DNA from: Sporosarcina jeotgali
Lineage (GTDB): Bacteria; Bacillota; Bacilli; Bacillales_A; Planococcaceae
Reading direction: 5' to 3'
DNA: 64,000 bases
Assembly (NCBI RefSeq): GCF_033304595.1
Contig: NZ_CP116341.1
Coordinates: 1,345,001-1,409,000, forward strand
Shown here: piece after piece, positions 40,132-47,671 of the stretch
Numbering within the stretch: position 1 is the first letter of the stretch
Layout of the letters: each line of letters begins with the position of its first letter
The notes under the pieces: model-generated
Told to the model about the DNA's origin: nothing
Seen by the model: only the letters and a program-made list of their open reading frames with translations
Databases searched by the model: none
Made by a program: the position numbers and the translations under genes

Positions 40132-40316
40132 CAAACTTCTTCAATTCATTGGATTGCCTGCAAGTGAACGCTTAAATGACTGCTCAAACAGTAGTATCCT
40201 TTAATAGTGAGACGAGTACTCTGGAATTCAAGGATCTTTTCAGATGAAAACTTTCAGAAGTAAGACAAACACTAAATGCCTCCATTCATAATAAGATGGT
40301 ATAGGAGGCGATGAGG

Positions 40317-40541
40317 ATGAACTGGCATTATAAAATAGACACTTTAATCAATCAGCCTGTTGGAATTTCATTGTCAAATGGGCAAGGGACGTCAGGGATT
40401 TTATGCGGAGTTACTAATGGTCAACTTCATGTAATTGAATACTTATACCAAGCGCAATTTGCTTTAAAAAAGTACGATTTCTATATGATTCAGGATATAA
40501 ATGGATTTCCTCCTTGTCAGAATCAAAGCCGGCTCTATTAG
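40317..40541 (+). CDS. Small protein, possibly Sm-like/YuzF-type
   Basis: This 74-residue protein contains LINQPVGISLSNGQGTSGIL followed by a short beta-rich pattern and a C-terminal GFPPCQNQ. The arrangement resembles small beta-barrel (DUF2642/YuzF-like) proteins of Bacillales, but I cannot confirm it. ATG 40317 is 8 nt from GGAGG (40304-40308); ATG 40311 is too close. No partner is evident. It starts the accessory stretch between rnz and namA. Confidence 0.55.
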   Translation: MNWHYKIDTLINQPVGISLSNGQGTSGILCGVTNGQLHVIEYLYQAQFALKKYDFYMIQDINGFPPCQNQSRLY

Positions 40542-40707
40542 AAGCAGTGGGTGAGCTGTGAAATAATGCTATTGAAATAATGAGAAGATGAGACTATGTA
40601 TCAACTTCTGATTTCTATTTGCAAAAACGTGAGTCAGTCTAAAAATATCCAGTTTTGCAATAGTGAAACCAACAATAAATTCACATCAAAATAAAGTCTT
40701 GTTAGTA

Positions 40708-40733
40708 GCATCGCAATTAGCGATGCTTTTTTC
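40708..40733 (+). terminator. Terminator in the rnz-downstream gap
   Basis: GCATCGC (40708-40714), loop AATTA, GCGATGC (40720-40726), then TTTTTT. Confidence 0.88.
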
Positions 40734-40762
40734 ATTTTTTTGAAAATTTTTATGGATATCTT

Positions 40763-40771
40763 TGGTATAAT
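40763..40771 (+). promoter_or_regulatory. Extended -10 promoter upstream of the 83-residue membrane gene
   Basis: TGGTATAAT is a perfect extended -10 element. It directs transcription towards the gene at 40954 with a long leader. Confidence 0.5.
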
Positions 40772-40953
40772 GATGTTAGCGTTGTAGTAGTTTTTGATAT
40801 TCAGCAAAAATGGCGAAACAATATTGCATATAAACTGTTAGTTTCCGTACCTCCGAACACTTTCCGAAGGAAGAAGCTTAATCCGTTTCCTTCAGGCATA
40901 AGATCCATACAAAAATCCAGTCATTTAACAGACTTTTTGAAAGGAAGAATTTT

Positions 40954-41205
40954 ATGGATGGAGAAGTGAAGAAAAAAGACGTCCAAGAAATTGATGGCAT
41001 TCATATTATGATTATTTTAGGCATTGTCATTTTAACCAGCCTTTTGCACCTTTCAGACACTATCCAGTGGTTTTTACTAGTAGGATACGCTTTAGTAATG
41101 ATCTTTTTTCATGAAAAAGGGAATCTTAAACGTTCTCTGGTTTTTGTTGCAATTGGTTTTGGGCTTGTTTTATTGAAAATGGTTTATATGAAATTAAACA
41201 TTTGA
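40954..41205 (+). CDS. Small membrane protein, unknown
   Basis: This 83-residue protein has a charged N-terminus and two or three hydrophobic helices (IHIMIILGIVILTSLLHL; WFLLVGYALVMIFF; LVFVAIGFGLVLLKMVY). No family is recognised. GAAAGGAAG precedes the ATG. It is a single gene with its own promoter, in the accessory island. Confidence 0.6.
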   Translation: MDGEVKKKDVQEIDGIHIMIILGIVILTSLLHLSDTIQWFLLVGYALVMIFFHEKGNLKRSLVFVAIGFGLVLLKMVYMKLNI

Positions 41206-41318
41206 AAAATAAAGTCAGCGTATTCTTGATTTATAAACTGGCGTTTTAACCGTATATGGTTTGGGCTTCAAACGGTCCATTTTTTGGTTAATACAAAAAA
41301 TTTAGATGGAGGATAGCA

Positions 41319-42593
41319 ATGAAACCCAAATTCCATGTTACACAAAACAGTTCCTTTATAGATACAGCATTGGAAATCCGAATCACCAATCTTCCACCGT
41401 GTGAGGTTGTAACGTTAAAAGCTGAAATGTGCGATAACCTTGGCAAGAATTGGGGGTCGTTTGCAGAATTTATATCTAATGACGAAGGGGAAATTAATTT
41501 AGCAACTGCGAAGCCTAGATCAGGTACATATTTAATTCCTGATGTGACTGGTCTTTTTTGGTCTATGTCACCTATCTTGAATGATAAACCGAAAGGAAAG
41601 ACCCCTTTAAAGCCATTGGAAACAAAGCTGTTTCTAATGAGAGGGCAAGAAGTCTTGACATTCACCTCGATAATTCGTGAGGTTGTTTCGCCTAAAGTGG
41701 ATAGATTTCCTGTACGTCAACAAGGAATTGTTGGAACATTCTTTTTTCATTCTAAGGCCGGACCGTTACCCACAGTAATCGTATTAGGTGGATCTGAGGG
41801 GGGATTAAGAGAAAGTAATGCCGGATTGTTGGCATCGCATGGATTTAACACGTTAGCATTGGCGTACTTTGGTATTGGAGACTTACCAAAAGAGCTTGTG
41901 AATATTCCCTTGGATTATATCGAAGGAGCAATAGATTGGTTGACCGGTAATCCGAATGTTGACTCCAAAAAAATAGGTGTATTTGGAACATCTAAAGGTG
42001 CGGAACTAGCTTTATTAAGTGCATCAATCTTTCCATCAATCAAAGCCGTTGTTGGATATGTACCTAGTGGAGTTGTTTACCCAGGATTAGGTCAATCCGC
42101 ACTTGGTTTAACCTCTTGGCAATATAAGGGGCAATCGTTACCATTTGCCAATGGTAAGATTCCCAGGGAGGTCACAGAGAAATTGGAACAGTCAATACGT
42201 ACAGGTAAACCGATATCCTGGCGTGAAATCTACCAATATTGGGCAAAAGATGAGAAACAAGCAGAGATTGCAGTCGAAGATATTCAGGGTCCTATTCTTT
42301 TGATTTCAGGAGGGGATGATCAACTTTGGCCTTCTGATTTCTTGTCTGAAAAAGTAATATTTAGATTAAAAGAACATAACCATCCTCACAATTTCATGCA
42401 TATCAACTTTCCGAAAGCTGGTCATTCATTGTCGATTCCAGGATTTCCAACTACACAAACAGTCATATCACCATTTGGAAATGGGAAGTTATTACTTGGG
42501 GGAACACCTCAAGATAACTCGCAGGCTCAATATACCGCTTGGCGAAGAATAGTCGCTTTTTTAAATGAAACCCTAACTTCTAGATTAGATTGA
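41319..42593 (+). CDS. Acyl-CoA thioesterase/BAAT-family alpha/beta hydrolase
   Basis: This 424-residue protein has an N-terminal beta-sandwich of the acyl-CoA thioester hydrolase/BAAT type (about 1-130) and a C-terminal alpha/beta-hydrolase domain. The nucleophile elbow is GVFGTSKGAELALL (Ser in GTSKG), with later catalytic Asp in LLISGGDDQLWPS and His in FPKAGHSLS. The members hydrolyse acyl-CoA or transfer acyl groups; substrate unknown here. GGAGGATAGCA precedes the ATG. It stands alone in the island. Confidence 0.85.
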   Translation: MKPKFHVTQNSSFIDTALEIRITNLPPCEVVTLKAEMCDNLGKNWGSFAEFISNDEGEINLATAKPRSGTYLIPDVTGLFWSMSPILNDKPKGKTPLKPLETKLFLMRGQEVLTFTSIIREVVSPKVDRFPVRQQGIVGTFFFHSKAGPLPTVIVLGGSEGGLRESNAGLLASHGFNTLALAYFGIGDLPKELVNIPLDYIEGAIDWLTGNPNVDSKKIGVFGTSKGAELALLSASIFPSIKAVVGYVPSGVVYPGLGQSALGLTSWQYKGQSLPFANGKIPREVTEKLEQSIRTGKPISWREIYQYWAKDEKQAEIAVEDIQGPILLISGGDDQLWPSDFLSEKVIFRLKEHNHPHNFMHINFPKAGHSLSIPGFPTTQTVISPFGNGKLLLGGTPQDNSQAQYTAWRRIVAFLNETLTSRLD

Positions 42594-42674
42594 TTCATGG
42601 AAGTTCAGCAAAAAGGGACAATTCTGGAATTAAGATTATGCCGTCAATGGGCCATTTTGAGGGAGAGGAAATAA

Positions 42675-43271
42675 TTGCTTGAAGAAATAATTAATCACTG
42701 GAACTCGTATTGTAAAGATGAAAACTTTGTTGGTATTGGCTCTACACGAAAAGTATTTAAAGTATCGAATTATGTAATTAAAGTACACTTGCACACAAAC
42801 GGGTATAAGCAATCACAAAATGAACTCAAAGTTTTCAGAGCAATGGAGAAAAAAGGGCTTGCTTCAATACTTGCCAAAACTTATTACGTGGATGACTTCA
42901 TTTCCATACAAGATTTCTATCATCCTTTAGAACTTATAGATAATCAATCCTATGAAATCAATTCTGGAATTCACAGTCACCTCATCCCAGATCTTTTTGA
43001 AACGGTTATGAATGAGTTGGATAAAAACTTCGATTGCTTTGATTTAAAAGACAGCAGTAATTTTGGTTTAAATAATAGCGGGAAACTTGTTTTAACTGAT
43101 TATGGCATGACAAAAGAGTTGTACGAAAAAGAATGGGTTCCATTAGCTGAAGAAGGTTTGCTTCCACAAATATATTTTGAGTCATGTAACACTTGTGGAG
43201 AAAAGAAAGAGTTACGGATATATGGTGATAATGATATAGACAAACGTTGCTATGATTGCGGGAAAGAATAA
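42675..43271 (+). CDS. Degenerate protein-kinase-fold protein with C-terminal zinc ribbon
   Basis: This 198-residue protein has kinase-like features: a glycine loop region VGIGSTRKVFKV (19-30), an IK motif (K36), a possible helix-C Glu (E50), DLKDSSN (123-129) in place of the HRD loop, and TDYG (141-144) in place of DFG. The C-terminus carries two Cys-x2-Cys pairs (C171/C174 and C192/C195), a probable zinc ribbon. Whether it phosphorylates anything is unknown. TTG start after GGGAGAGGAAA. A+T-richer than its backbone neighbours, consistent with acquisition. Confidence 0.6.
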   Translation: MLEEIINHWNSYCKDENFVGIGSTRKVFKVSNYVIKVHLHTNGYKQSQNELKVFRAMEKKGLASILAKTYYVDDFISIQDFYHPLELIDNQSYEINSGIHSHLIPDLFETVMNELDKNFDCFDLKDSSNFGLNNSGKLVLTDYGMTKELYEKEWVPLAEEGLLPQIYFESCNTCGEKKELRIYGDNDIDKRCYDCGKE

Positions 43272-43313
43272 CATCCCTGTTAACGGAAAATTGGCAAATC
43301 CGTCTGCCGTTAG

Positions 43314-43500
43314 TGGGGGCGATTCTTTGGTAATACATCCTTAGTTGATTGGAGTGCAAGCCGTCGACTCTGAGAGGATTAGCGTGCGCTTGAGACCCTG
43401 GACGTAGCGAAGCGAAGGAAGCGGCTCAAGCCACGTCCTCCGGAAAACGTGCGGCTGGAACGCAAATCAACGTGCTTAACATTATTCCAGATATGGGGGC
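43314..43500 (+). repeat. ~187-bp structured repeat, copy 1
   Basis: Near-identical to 47151-47338, with roughly 15 differences by eye. Both ends carry TGGGGGC. The outer arms GTTGATT...AGCCG and CGGCT...AATCAAC pair. Inner arms near CTTGAGACC and GGCTCAAGCC, and near GGATTAGCG and CGTCCTCC, also tend to pair, so the whole unit could fold as one long imperfect hairpin. Confidence 0.85.
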
Positions 43501-43600
43501 TATTCACTAAAATGATCCGTTCTTCAAACGGACCATTTTCATATATTTGAAACTTTTCTATAGCATCAACGATTAACCTTTATAAAGGTGGAGAGAAAAA

Positions 43601-44104
43601 ATGAAAAAACTTACTTTCTTAGGAGTTTTGTTCATTGCGATGATATTAGGTGCTTGCGGGGTTTCAAATAATAAAAATGCTGACACGATTTTAAGCGGAG
43701 ACAAACCACCAAATGTAGTTGTAAAAATTAACGGCGAAAAATACGAAACGGTATTAGGTACATATTGTTGGGAAATCCGTTCTACTGGTGATAAAAAGAC
43801 AGGTGAATGTGTCGACACTGCGGGTCCAGTAGATTTATTAAAGGATAAAGAGCCCATCCAAATTACGGCAGGTGAGGAAGTCACATTGATTATGGATTAC
43901 ACACCAAAGCCTAATGAAATGCATCTTTCACAGGTAAAGAGTCATAACGATGAAATGGAAATTGAAGTGAAAGACAATCAATTTATAGCTCCCAATGAAA
44001 AGGGTATATACTTTTATAGTTATGGCGTCTGGTGGATGGATGAAGAAGATAAAGATTTATCCCATGGTGATGCTTTTTATGCTTTTTCTTTAGAAGTTAA
44101 ATAA
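43601..44104 (+). CDS. Lipoprotein, unknown
   Basis: This 167-residue protein has a lipoprotein signal peptide; the lipobox LGAC puts the lipidated cysteine at residue 19. Downstream are two Cys residues (YCWEIR and GECVDT) and a beta-rich domain ending in KGIYFYSYGVWWMDEE. No family is recognised with certainty. Ribosome site AAAGGTGGAGAG. It would be anchored on the outer face of the membrane. Confidence 0.75.
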   Translation: MKKLTFLGVLFIAMILGACGVSNNKNADTILSGDKPPNVVVKINGEKYETVLGTYCWEIRSTGDKKTGECVDTAGPVDLLKDKEPIQITAGEEVTLIMDYTPKPNEMHLSQVKSHNDEMEIEVKDNQFIAPNEKGIYFYSYGVWWMDEEDKDLSHGDAFYAFSLEVK

Positions 44105-44182
44105 ACGGTTGCGTTTGCGTGATAAGGACAATGCATCAAACTTAAGATATTGGATTGGACCTAGGTAAAGGGAGAGATTTAA

Positions 44183-44890
44183 ATGAATCAGGAAAAGGCG
44201 GAAATTCTTATACTTGGCAGCTTTCACATGTCCGAAATCGAGGGACTAGATACGCATCAAAGGCAAATGGAAATCGAGGAATTGGTTTCGAAAATAGGGA
44301 ATTTCAAACCGACCAAGATTGCGGTTGAAATGGAACCGAAGGAGAGTAAGACATGTAATGAGCTATATAAGCGATATCAATCGGGTTCTTTTTCATTACC
44401 AATCAATGAAATCTACCAGGTAGGCTTCCGGCTAGGGGTTGAGCTTAAGCATAACGAAATCTATCCGACCGATTGGATGGGGACTGAAGACATGAGCTTC
44501 GGGGAAGTTCAGAGTTGGGCGGAGGAACACCAATCGGAGATGTTAAAAGAAATTCTTGCAGGAGTCGAGGATATACCTGTATGGACTGAGGATAAAACTG
44601 TACTGGGCTACTACAGAGAGTTAAATGAGCCAGCTTTTCTAGACCTGTTACATAAAGTCCATTTAAACATTGCGCGTATTGGTGAAGTAGATCACTATGT
44701 GGGTATAAACTGGCTCAGTTGGTGGTATAAGAGGAATCTAATCATGTTCTCCAACTTATCCCGTCTCATTGAATCCAAGGAAGAACGCATTCTATTCATT
44801 GTAGGGATCGGACACTCTTCCATTGTCACGAAGTTTATTGAGGAAAGTGAACTTTGCGAGGTAGTTAAACCCCTTCATTATTTGTCTTGA
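44183..44890 (+). CDS. TraB/DUF5694-like protein
   Basis: This 235-residue protein begins with EILILGSFHMSE, continues with KIAVEMEPKESK and ends with LFIVGIGHSSIV. A small-residue-His motif, a conserved Glu and a C-terminal GxGH are the pattern of TIKI/TraB-like and related DUF5694 proteins, which are putative metal-dependent hydrolases. Exact activity unknown. GGGAGAG precedes the ATG. Single gene in the island. Confidence 0.65.
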   Translation: MNQEKAEILILGSFHMSEIEGLDTHQRQMEIEELVSKIGNFKPTKIAVEMEPKESKTCNELYKRYQSGSFSLPINEIYQVGFRLGVELKHNEIYPTDWMGTEDMSFGEVQSWAEEHQSEMLKEILAGVEDIPVWTEDKTVLGYYRELNEPAFLDLLHKVHLNIARIGEVDHYVGINWLSWWYKRNLIMFSNLSRLIESKEERILFIVGIGHSSIVTKFIEESELCEVVKPLHYLS

Positions 44891-45006
44891 AAATATATTT
44901 TTTGAAGGATTCTTCAGAATCTGGGAGCGTTTGCTTTATAAGAGATTTAGTCTATATCGCAATGGACCATTTTGCTAGATAACTTTGTTTGAAAGGCGTG
45001 AGTAAA

Positions 45007-45267
45007 GTGGGGAAAGAAAATATAAAATTATTCGGGATTCCTATTGTCTTCTTATTGTTGGGTATTTTGTTTTTAATATTGGGAGCAAATGGGGATAGTA
45101 TTGCGGTAAACTTTTCAAGACCACCTGGTGCTACATCGTGGACGACTTCAGGCAGTACCGCTGATGCTTTTACATCAGTCTTAATGATTATAGGTATCTC
45201 TTTTCAAATATTGTTTATTAGCACTTTTTCTATATCATTTTATCTCTGGCAAAAGGGCAGTCGCTAA
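45007..45267 (+). CDS. Small two-helix membrane protein, unknown
   Basis: This protein of about 86 residues has two hydrophobic segments (GIPIVFLLLGILFLILGA; VLMIIGISFQILFISTF) separated by a polar loop rich in Ser, Thr and Gly. No family recognised. GTG 45007 is chosen from AAAGG at 44992-44996; TTG 44989 and GTG 44998 are in the same frame. Confidence 0.55.
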   Translation: MGKENIKLFGIPIVFLLLGILFLILGANGDSIAVNFSRPPGATSWTTSGSTADAFTSVLMIIGISFQILFISTFSISFYLWQKGSR

Positions 45268-45283
45268 ATTTGACCTTCTGCAA

Positions 45284-45319
45284 AAGGGTGCGATTCCGAA
45301 ATTGGGACCTGCACTCTTT
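45284..45319 (+). terminator. Hairpin downstream of the small membrane gene
   Basis: AAAGGGTGC (about 45283-45291) pairs with GCACTCTTT (45311-45319). It is followed by the GGGCCACTTTG motif, the same order as at 46.65 kb. Confidence 0.5.
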
Positions 45320-45408
45320 GAACAAAAGGGCCACTTTGCGGTGTAAATATATTCTTTAAAAAAGGAACTTTTACTATTTGAAAAGACGTGTTTTGGGGAG
45401 GGGCAGAC

Positions 45409-45978
45409 ATAAATATAGCAGAATTCAAGAAAAATCTATCCACTGTAAACTAGATTATTTACTTCGATAAAGGTCAGTATCTTCGTGAAAAGACCTCTAA
45501 TCCTGTAATGTTAAACCAAATTATTAGCCAAGGAAAAGGCTTATTAGAAGACAGTAATGAAAACGATAAGTATTTTCTTTATGGGGCTTTAGGAAATTTA
45601 TACAGAATAAATGGGCAACCCAAAAAAGCAATTAACTGTTTAACATATTGTCTTAATCAAGCAGTAGTAGAAAGAAACCCCACAAGGAAAATCGTTGCTT
45701 CAATTCGTCTTGGTGAGGTTCTTAAATACGATAGCAATCATAAAATGGCTTTGGACCATTTTAATAAATCTTTGAGAATGTGTGAAGCCCACAAGATTGA
45801 CGAATACTTGGATTTCGTACTGCAACACAAAGGTAAATGTCTAATGGAATTAGCAAATCTAAACGAAGCCGAAGAATGCTTTCAAAAAGCATTGATACTA
45901 AGAAAATCAAAAGAAAATCGCTCCTTAATTGACTCGACTGAACAAGCAATTGGATTAGTAAGAGAAATGCAAAGATAA
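45409..45978 (+). pseudogene. TPR protein gene with lost start and internal stop
   Basis: From ATA 45409, 6-8 nt after GGGGAGGGGC, the frame reads I-N-I-A-E-F-K-K-N-L-S-T-V-N, meets TAG at 45451-45453, then continues through YFDKGQYLREK into a 156-residue TPR-like region (start at ATG 45508). Repeats such as YGALGNLYRINGQPKKAINC and LDFVLQHKGKCLMELANLNE are tetratricopeptide-like. The original start was probably ATG, now ATA, and the amber codon separates it from the body. ATG 45508 has no clear ribosome site, so the gene is probably dead. Confidence 0.65.
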
Positions 45979-46120
45979 ATAGGTGCAATAAGCCTGTGTA
46001 TTAAGTTAACAGGGGCCATAGTTCAGTGACTGCTGAAATAAAAACGGGCCAATTACTGAAAAGTATGCCCTACAAGGTTAAGCAACAACTGCTAAATTAA
46101 ACTTGGAGGTTTGAAAAAAC

Positions 46121-46612
46121 ATGAGACAATTGGGGACGTTATATTTTTTCTGCGGGAAAATGGGTGCAGGAAAATCAACTAAATCAAAACAATATGCAAT
46201 AGATAAGAATGCAGTACTATTATCTGAGGATGAATGGCTTTCATCTCTTTATCCCAATCAGATCGAATCATTTGAAGATTTTCTGAAGTTTTCGGCGCAG
46301 ATTAAGCCGTTGGTGAGAAAACATGTCCAAAATATATTAAGTGTAGGTACAGATGTAGTAATGGATTTTCCCGCTAATACTCAAAAGCAACGTAAGTGGT
46401 TTTTGGATATGGTGTCCGATGTCAATGCAAGCCATCAATTAATTTTCCTTAATCTAAATAACGAACAATGCTTACGTCAAATTGCACAAAGACGTAACGA
46501 ACAACCTGAAAGAGCGGATTTTGATACTGAAGAAATGTTTACCCATGTTACTAACTTTTTTGAGGCACCAGAAGCATCAGAGGGATTAAATATTTTAGAG
46601 TTTAATGGATAA
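46121..46612 (+). CDS. AAA_33-type P-loop ATPase/kinase
   Basis: This 163-residue protein has Walker A GKMGAGKS (12-19), LSEDEWL in the substrate-binding region, VVMDFPANTQKQRKWFLD (Walker B-like) and a lid region with RQIAQRRNEQPERADFD. The family includes zeta-toxin-like and polynucleotide-kinase-like enzymes that phosphorylate small substrates or detoxify antibiotics. No antitoxin-like partner is adjacent. Ribosome site CTTGGAGGTTTG. Single gene in the island. Confidence 0.75.
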   Translation: MRQLGTLYFFCGKMGAGKSTKSKQYAIDKNAVLLSEDEWLSSLYPNQIESFEDFLKFSAQIKPLVRKHVQNILSVGTDVVMDFPANTQKQRKWFLDMVSDVNASHQLIFLNLNNEQCLRQIAQRRNEQPERADFDTEEMFTHVTNFFEAPEASEGLNILEFNG

Positions 46613-46651
46613 TAACAAGGAGTTCAATATAACATTGTCGTACATTGCAAC

Positions 46652-46689
46652 AATAGGGCGCAATTCTTGAAGAAGGATTGCGCCTATTT
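46652..46689 (+). terminator. Hairpin downstream of the P-loop gene
   Basis: AATAGGGCGCAAT (46652-46664) pairs with ATTGCGCCTATT (46677-46688) with one bulged G. The GGGCC motif follows at 46698. Confidence 0.7.
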
Positions 46690-46781
46690 CAGTAATCGGG
46701 CCAAAGAGTTGAATTAGAACTTAACTTCTTCTGCTAAGGGGTAGTGGAGTGAAGAGGATGACTTGTCTTATGGGGGAGTTT

Positions 46782-47150
46782 ATGAAAAAGATAATTATAT
46801 CGTTTGTTCTTGTAATATTAGTTGTTGTAATTCTGGTGAATTTAGATACAGTATACCTAAAATTACAAGAAAGTAATGTGAGTAATGGAGATTACTATGT
46901 CAGTGAGATAAATGCCGAAAGAGATAGAAAAGGACAAAATATCTTAGATATAACTGACCTTAACTTTTATACAAAATACTCCGGAAACAACATTTATTTA
47001 ACACAAGTATTTTTTGAAAATAAACTTGAAATGATTTTTTTAACGAAAGCGTCTAAAAACGGTTTCCTTGACTGGGAATATCACACGCTCCCATTTACAA
47101 CCACAGAAAACATTACTAAAGAATCGTTGGACGATTGGATCTTAAACTAA
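46782..47150 (+). CDS. Small secreted/membrane protein, possibly DUF3139-like
   Basis: This 122-residue protein has an N-terminal membrane segment (IIISFVLVILVVVILVNLD) and an extracellular domain with FYTKYSGNNIYLTQVFF and a C-terminal LDDWILN. It resembles short anchored proteins of the DUF3139/YxeA type in layout only. ATG 46782 is close to GGGGGAG; an upstream GTG at 46749 is in frame. The repeat copy 2 begins right at its stop. Confidence 0.5.
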   Translation: MKKIIISFVLVILVVVILVNLDTVYLKLQESNVSNGDYYVSEINAERDRKGQNILDITDLNFYTKYSGNNIYLTQVFFENKLEMIFLTKASKNGFLDWEYHTLPFTTTENITKESLDDWILN

Positions 47151-47338
47151 TGGGGGCGATTGTTTGGTACTACACTCTTAGTTGATTGGAGTGCAAGCCG
47201 TCGACTCCGGGAGGATCAGCGTGAGCCTTGAGACCCTGGACGTAGCGAAGCGAAGGAAGCGGCTCAAGCCACGCCCTCCGGAAAGCGTACGGCTGGAACG
47301 CAAATCAACGTGCTTAACACTATTCCAGATATGGGGGC
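47151..47338 (+). repeat. ~188-bp structured repeat, copy 2
   Basis: Direct repeat of 43314-43500, same orientation, same TGGGGGC at both ends. The central 48 nt (around GACGTAGCGAAGCGAAGG) is essentially identical in the two copies, while differences cluster at the flanks. A 65-codon frame inside (47182-47379) is a by-product of the repeat. Confidence 0.85.
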
Positions 47339-47671
47339 GTTTCTTGCATAAGGTGTTTACTTCAAACGGGCCATTTTGAAACTTAATAATTTATATGCTT
47401 AAGGGAAAGAGTCAACATTACTCTAACTTTTTTCAGGTTTGTATAATTTTTTAGTTTTAGAAAGGTTACAGAATTTACTAAAATTAACTATATACCTCTG
47501 AATGCAATAAAAAACCGCAATTTCATTTTTGAATTTGCGGTTTTTCACGTCTGTAATTTGTTTTTTGTAATTTACATTTTTAGCAGGTCATCTGGACAAA
47601 AGCTATGACTTTATAGAAAGATTTGATGTATTTAAGAAAATAGCTTGATTGTGACACTTAGGACAACCATT
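47339..47671. other. Gap at the end of the island
   Basis: Holds the last GGGCCATTTTG motif (47368-47378), an A+T-rich stretch with no supported frame, and the terminator at 47510-47545 before the 3' end of namA. Confidence 0.5.
47510..47545. terminator. Bidirectional terminator between the island and namA
   Basis: AAAAACCGCAA (47510-47520) pairs with TTGCGGTTTTT (47535-47545). A-rich and T-rich sides allow action on both strands. Confidence 0.88.

Follow-up and report, generated by a model that had tools for sequence, protein, structure and literature searches.

Between rnz and namA, a 64-kb stretch of the complete 3.2-Mb genome of Sporosarcina jeotgali (G000:C1:1345001-1409000, with G000 denoting this genome; hereafter the window) carries an island of single genes separated by a recurring short element. 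We propose that this island is an array of mobile gene cassettes belonging to an integron-like system that runs on site-specific recombination, a reading to which we assign a probability of about 0.85. Comparison of related genomes indicates that exchange takes place at the 6-bp cores of two boxes, A and B, present in the junctions between genes, that whole arrays are exchanged between lone border boxes, and that cassettes recur across arrays and species. A first-pass annotation of the window had described a cassette-like island at 40132-47600 with a GGnCCATTTTG-like motif in its gaps. The array proper is somewhat shorter, extending from ~40914 to 47373, and the 76-aa gene at 40311 is not a clear cassette.

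The motif was concentrated in the island. With up to one mismatch, GGNCCATTTTG matched 14 times in the window against 5.5 ± 2.3 times in shuffled sequence, and 7 of these 14 matches lay on the + strand within 40132-47600, against an expectation of ~0.3 there; of these seven, the match at 45753 falls by chance inside the TPR gene. A profile of the element recovered exactly 8 matches in the window, all on the + strand and all in the island (41235-47376), and a ninth junction (core 46046-46051) proved too degenerate for the profile model. The sequence TTCAAACG, which had been noticed before three motif copies, was found upstream of the motif at 3 places. An Rfam scan of the window returned no match, and an exact 16-mer search of genome contigs gave mostly chance matches in unrelated phyla.

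When elements of the window were aligned with others of the genus, the annotated motif proved real but constituted only half of a two-box element. Box A, which follows a gene, consists of AATCGGGNGC and a right arm ending in ATTG or TTTG (AATC-GGGNGC-GATTG-like); box B, which precedes the next gene and corresponds to the annotated motif, reads A(A/T)C-GGGCCA-TTTTG (AAAC-GGGCCA-KWTTG-like). The two boxes are in direct orientation, ~35 or 42 bp apart, and each is built like a Xer-type core site, with short inverted arms on either side of a 6-bp centre. Neither a consensus fold nor covarying structure was found among the elements. When 160 elements were folded as DNA, the common, short class did not differ from shuffles on either strand (z ~0), whereas a longer class folded (z -1.6) and looks terminator-like. 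Hairpins, which had been described ahead of the motif in at least two gaps, are mainly a feature of this longer class.

We mapped the limits of homology in an all-versus-all comparison of 93 array loci, using jittered positions as controls; many of the pairs are not independent events. Of 471 5' ends of homology, 193 lay no more than 20 bp from box B (28 for jittered positions), as did 99 of 488 3' ends (31 jittered). At identities of at least 90%, both boxes were enriched over jittered positions, for 5' ends (34 versus 6 at box A, 61 versus 7 at box B) as well as 3' ends (85 versus 4 and 34 versus 6, respectively). Among 35 pairs in which the same cassette lies in unrelated contexts, identity rose from random at -6 to ~0.9 after +1, and at cassette 3' ends (14 pairs) it fell from ~1.0 at -7 to random at +1. 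These switches place the crossover within GGGCCA. A second switch was seen at box A, where homology was lost within GGGNGC in 35 pairs. Exchange of a whole array is illustrated by genomes G088 and G008, whose flanks are 99.8% identical over 8.4 kb on the left and 99.5% identical over 5.2 kb on the right and enclose one 315-bp cassette in G088 and a different 4.4-kb array in G008. The left breakpoint is a lone, attI-like box B (GGGCCA) 3' of a recombinase gene, and the right breakpoint is a lone right-border box A (GGGCGC). G007 and G010 differ by a single-cassette insertion between flanks that are 94% identical over >3 kb, the element at this place in G010 being degenerate.

The window locus itself varies among relatives. 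The rnz-namA interval is empty (114-119 bp) in G025, G008, G088 and G022 and filled with other genes in four more genomes, spanning 4.7 kb in G007 and holding elements along with other genes after rnz in G010, G076 and G020. The flanks of the empty interval are too diverged for an insertion point to be placed. Relatives of 6 of the 9 window cassettes were found in other arrays, and window cassettes recur elsewhere in other orders; the hydrolase (91%) and the kinase (87%), for example, are both present in G076 in reversed order. Across the genus the same motif flanks different single genes, and gene gain, loss and swapping have their borders at the motif, as modular gain would predict. Two outcomes that the first-pass annotation had set against modular gain, a motif equally common in random intergenic DNA and neighbours conserved as a stable operon, were not seen, matches being confined to arrays and the rnz-namA interval being empty or differently filled. 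The 76-aa gene (40311-40541) stands beside rnz in five species with a filled interval and is absent where the interval is empty; it is possibly the founder of the hotspot.

The earlier remark that no integrase is visible holds for the surroundings of the window array but not for the genome, in which positions 2862246-2863085 of C1 encode a recombinase adjoining another array at 2.862 Mb, 1.5 Mb from the window. There (locus L243), and in G018, G073 and G068, a Xer-like tyrosine recombinase of ~280 aa is located directly upstream of a lone box B and cassettes. For most recombinase copies of at least 73% identity, the gene is followed, 95-350 bp further on, by a lone GGRCCA box B that shares its strand, and ~7 platforms, including those of G000, G073, G068, G001 and G010, have a lone box A as right border. 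These comparisons mark out an attI-like entry site beside the recombinase. In the 26 homologs, R138, K162, H229xxR232 and Y264 are invariant and H255 nearly so, matching the tyrosine recombinase pattern R-K-HxxR-H-Y. The protein scored 212-218 bits with the XerA model (cut-off 220), 190-207 bits with the XerC and XerD models (cut-offs 335 and 330) and ~95-109 bits with the IntI model (TIGR02249; cut-off 265), and its alignment to XerD revealed no long insertion in the catalytic domain. Recombinase matches were present in 66 of 261 genomes of the order (7 of 19 genera), with decayed copies containing stops in several species. Genomes with an intact or decayed recombinase had a median of 25 elements, compared with 8 in genomes lacking it (p = 0.00015, relatedness ignored).

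Several other observations concern the recombinase and its platforms. A platform of G068 (L249:13038-14495) holds one 112-aa cassette in triple tandem copy, and the same platform contains two identical 407-aa transposase-like insertions. A second recombinase subfamily, ~60% identical (L367, L368 and L369), is carried by plasmids of S. psychrophila, Peribacillus and one host filed as Arthrobacter citreus. On the two plasmids examined, from S. psychrophila and A. citreus, this second form adjoins genes with different but similar two-box junctions, in the opposite orientation relative to the recombinase. The L368 plasmid is filed under Arthrobacter citreus NEB 577; the recombinase is otherwise seen in Bacillales, and the species label may be wrong. 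A phage origin was rejected, as phage records gave only distant recombinase matches (34-38% identity). Tandem runs of four tyrosine recombinase matches were likewise set aside: one (L246:8174-11944, G007) has an element within 3 kb, and the other (L247, G068) has none near.

Elements are widespread in the genus and beyond it. In the S. jeotgali genome, model R1 gave 46 matches at E <= 0.1 and 51 at E <= 1, forming ~9 arrays, each running in one direction. Element matches were found in 66 of 68 Sporosarcina genomes (0 to 58 per genome), and 154 of the 261 genomes of the order, representing 18 of 19 genera, had at least one element at E <= 0.01. The arrays are mostly chromosomal. All S. jeotgali arrays checked lie on the leading strand as judged by GC skew, which host gene strand bias could explain.

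These are co-directional arrays of mostly single-gene cassettes. The 270 segments between elements have a median length of 596 bp, and 314 genes were called in them on the strand of the element, compared with 19 on the opposite strand. Usually, a cassette is a single gene, probably without a promoter of its own. The 314 proteins fell into 239 families, 186 of them singletons; among 134 that were scanned, acetyltransferases were commonest (8) and most other families appeared once. Single cassette proteins (alignment A4) match models of the anti-phage defence proteins PtuA, AriA, AbiLi and RmrA. Within the window, the BAAT hydrolase, TPR protein, P-loop kinase (AAA_33) and lipobox protein were as annotated; the 'TraB-like' protein belongs to DUF5694, and the 198-aa protein described as kinase-like has no Pfam match.

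Complete platforms elsewhere comprise the recombinase, its attI-like lone box B 95-350 bp downstream, a series of cassettes and, in several cases, a conserved lone box A as right border. The dedicated recombinase may catalyse exchange of B with B and of A with A, either by way of circular cassettes or by a double exchange, and heterospecificity between A and B may have a role in the exchange of single genes. Expression would be driven by a promoter near attI. The integrase at 2.862 Mb may have assembled the window array in trans, or the array may be a relic. With two different sites per gene and fixed B and A borders, single genes, linkers and whole arrays would all be exchangeable, as in recombinase-mediated cassette exchange. 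It is reasonably probable that the arrays constitute an independent cassette-capture class that evolved from a Xer-type recombinase in Gram-positive Planococcaceae, with each gene bracketed by a B before it and an A after it and with platform borders fixed as left B and right A.

Some observations weigh against this account. That the recombinase acts on these sites is inferred, and no circular cassettes were observed. Recombinase copies L265, L269, L272 and L277 have no lone box B downstream, some platforms have no recognisable lone box B or right border, and in the window array some elements are decayed and the left end shows no clear attI-like site. The recombinase family was undetected in three element-rich genomes (G007, G020 and G019), so either the enzyme has been lost there or another can act. 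The promoter evidence at attI is weak: several platforms have an extended -10-like match nearby, and a generic promoter scan found no site there on the array strand.

The element-rich genomes that lack the dedicated recombinase, together with the Xer-like core spacing of 6 bp between short inverted arms, could also be taken to mean that the dedicated recombinase is a passenger and that cassette movement depends on the host enzymes XerC/XerD, as it does in dif modules, or on some unrelated recombinase. We consider this unlikely, given that the sites are unlike published pdif sites and stand in direct rather than alternating orientation, and that the dedicated recombinase adjoins a lone border site and correlates with element number. 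Alternatively, the 50-bp elements might be ordinary terminator- or REP-like (repetitive extragenic palindromic) repeats at which RecA-dependent or illegitimate recombination reshuffles the intervening genes. The elements share conserved stretches in which any exchange would tend to fall, the longer ones have terminator-like hairpins, and REP-like modules are present. Breakpoints are nonetheless located inside the two 6-bp cores rather than spread over the whole element, and those of G088 and G008 share one short box each, far below the tens of bases of shared sequence that RecA requires. As the arrays are, moreover, accompanied by a dedicated recombinase and lone border sites, we regard this explanation as quite unlikely.

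A true but divergent integron, with IntI and attC sites, would account for the shared logic of integrase, attI-like site, single-gene cassette arrays and arrays lacking an integrase. It is very unlikely to be the answer in view of the IntI score, far below its cut-off, the missing catalytic-domain insertion, the absence of covarying structure and the two crossover sites per junction with a right border; short elements also fold no better than shuffles on either strand. That all genes occupy a single strand and that some elements have terminator-like hairpins would fit a stable operon whose intrinsic terminators are conserved by chance. To this possibility we give practically no credence, because the gene content of relatives refutes it: the locus is empty or differently filled, and cassettes recur in other orders. 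We favour cassette exchange by site-specific recombination. The features of the window array are listed below.

Table. Features of the cassette array between rnz and namA, in window coordinates
Feature	Position	Strand	Remarks
76-aa gene	40311..40541	+	adjoins rnz; probably borders the array on its left rather than being a cassette
Degenerate left box B (AATCCA)	40914..40919	+	homologs of cassette 1 start here
Cassette 1: 83-aa membrane protein (40954-41205)	40920..41238	+	84-88% copies in other arrays of G007 and of this genome
Junction element 1	41235..41286	+	box A core 41239-41244; box B core GGTCCA 41274-41279
Cassette 2: BAAT/acyl-CoA hydrolase (41319-42593)	41280..42613	+	Pfam; 91% copy in G076 starting 3 bp after box B
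Junction element 2	42610..42661	+	box A core 42614-42619; box B core GGGCCA 42649-42654
Cassette 3: 198-aa protein (42675-43271)	42655..43314	+	no Pfam match
REP-like module without open reading frame	43315..43494	+	box A cores at both ends: 43315-43320, 43495-43500
Junction element 3	43491..43540	+	box A core GGGGGC 43495-43500; box B core GGACCA 43530-43535
Cassette 4: 167-aa lipoprotein (43601-44104)	43536..44106	+	94% copy in G020, +1 to -28 of box B
Junction element 4	44103..44160	+	box A core 44107-44112; box B decayed
Cassette 5: DUF5694 protein (44183-44890)	44161..44922	+	72% copy in G007
Junction element 5	44922..44976	+	box A core GGGAGC 44923-44928; box B core GGACCA 44964-44969
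Cassette 6: small membrane protein (~45007-45267)	44970..45285	+	
Junction element 6	45282..45340	+	box A core GGGTGC 45286-45291; box B core GGGCCA 45328-45333; 91-94% matches to G020 elements
Cassette 7: TPR protein (45508-45978)	45334..46045	+	Pfam
Junction 7	46046..46051	+	box B core GGGCCA; degenerate box A ~45981-45986; read directly, below model threshold
Cassette 8: AAA_33 P-loop kinase (46121-46612)	46052..46655	+	87% copy in G076
Junction element 8	46652..46703	+	box A core GGGCGC 46656-46661, hairpin, box B core GGGCCA 46698-46703
Cassette 9: 133-aa membrane-anchored protein (46749-47150)	46704..47151	+	96% copies in this genome (2.046 Mb) and G083; 87% in G013
Second REP-like A-A module without open reading frame	47152..47332	+	
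Junction element 9	47329..47379	+	box A core GGGGGC 47333-47338; box B core GGGCCA 47368-47373; best-scoring match, last before namA

At 43315-43494 and 47152-47332 the window carries two REP-like repeats that share 88-89% identity, and more full and partial copies occur in arrays of this genome and of relatives. Each full copy of the A-A module in the S. jeotgali genome is followed by a different right half of an element.

Firmicutes are regarded as having almost no integrons. The system described here, if confirmed, would be a second way of capturing genes that was built separately and is common in one Gram-positive family, and it would explain many of the scattered accessory genes of that family. 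It would also supply a natural two-site tool for cassette exchange, recombination sites that can easily be tested, and an opportunity to ask how a Xer recombinase gives rise to an integron-like system. The cassettes, mostly small proteins of unknown function along with acetyltransferases and hydrolases, form a reservoir of unstudied genes.

A literature search limited to open-access papers yielded no description of this system. Its closest protein families and solved structures are XerA, XerC and XerD, from which the recombinase is set apart by scores below all their cut-offs and by a different genomic role. Like the dif/pdif modules of Acinetobacter plasmids (PMC13141974, PMC6449649), the arrays consist of genes bounded by tyrosine recombinase sites that have a 6-bp centre and contain the crossover, and their modules are shuffled. 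Published pdif sites serve host XerC/XerD, and their modules, of the C and D types, alternate between inversely oriented sites (PMC13141974, PMC6449649). Here, by contrast, the site sequence differs from pdif, nearly all elements of an array share one orientation, and the arrays are mostly chromosomal, with a dedicated recombinase and border sites.

The resemblance to integrons and to clusters of attC sites lacking an integrase (CALIN) is one of organization. In both cases a dedicated tyrosine recombinase stands beside an attachment site, arrays also occur without an integrase, and co-directional, mostly single-gene cassettes each end in a recombination site, with some cassettes devoid of an open reading frame. 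The modular gain that the first-pass annotation had likened to integron cassette arrays is supported, and the island is a cassette array that belongs to an integron-like system but lacks an integrase of its own, parallel to integrase-less attC clusters. It is not an integron, because the recombinase fails the IntI model, being Xer/XerA-like, and the common, short element class shows no single-stranded DNA fold above shuffles. The attC sites are imperfect palindromes with GTTRRRY/RYYYAAC ends that act as folded single strands, whereas the sites described here are unrelated in sequence, with GGGCCA and GGGNGC cores. IntegronFinder 2.0 recorded a single complete integron in Firmicutes (Limnochorda) plus a few integrase-less clusters (PMC9024848). 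The present arrays, unlike integrons, belong to Gram-positive hosts, have a recombinase co-directional with the array, and combine two crossover sites per junction, A and B, with a conserved lone box A as right border.

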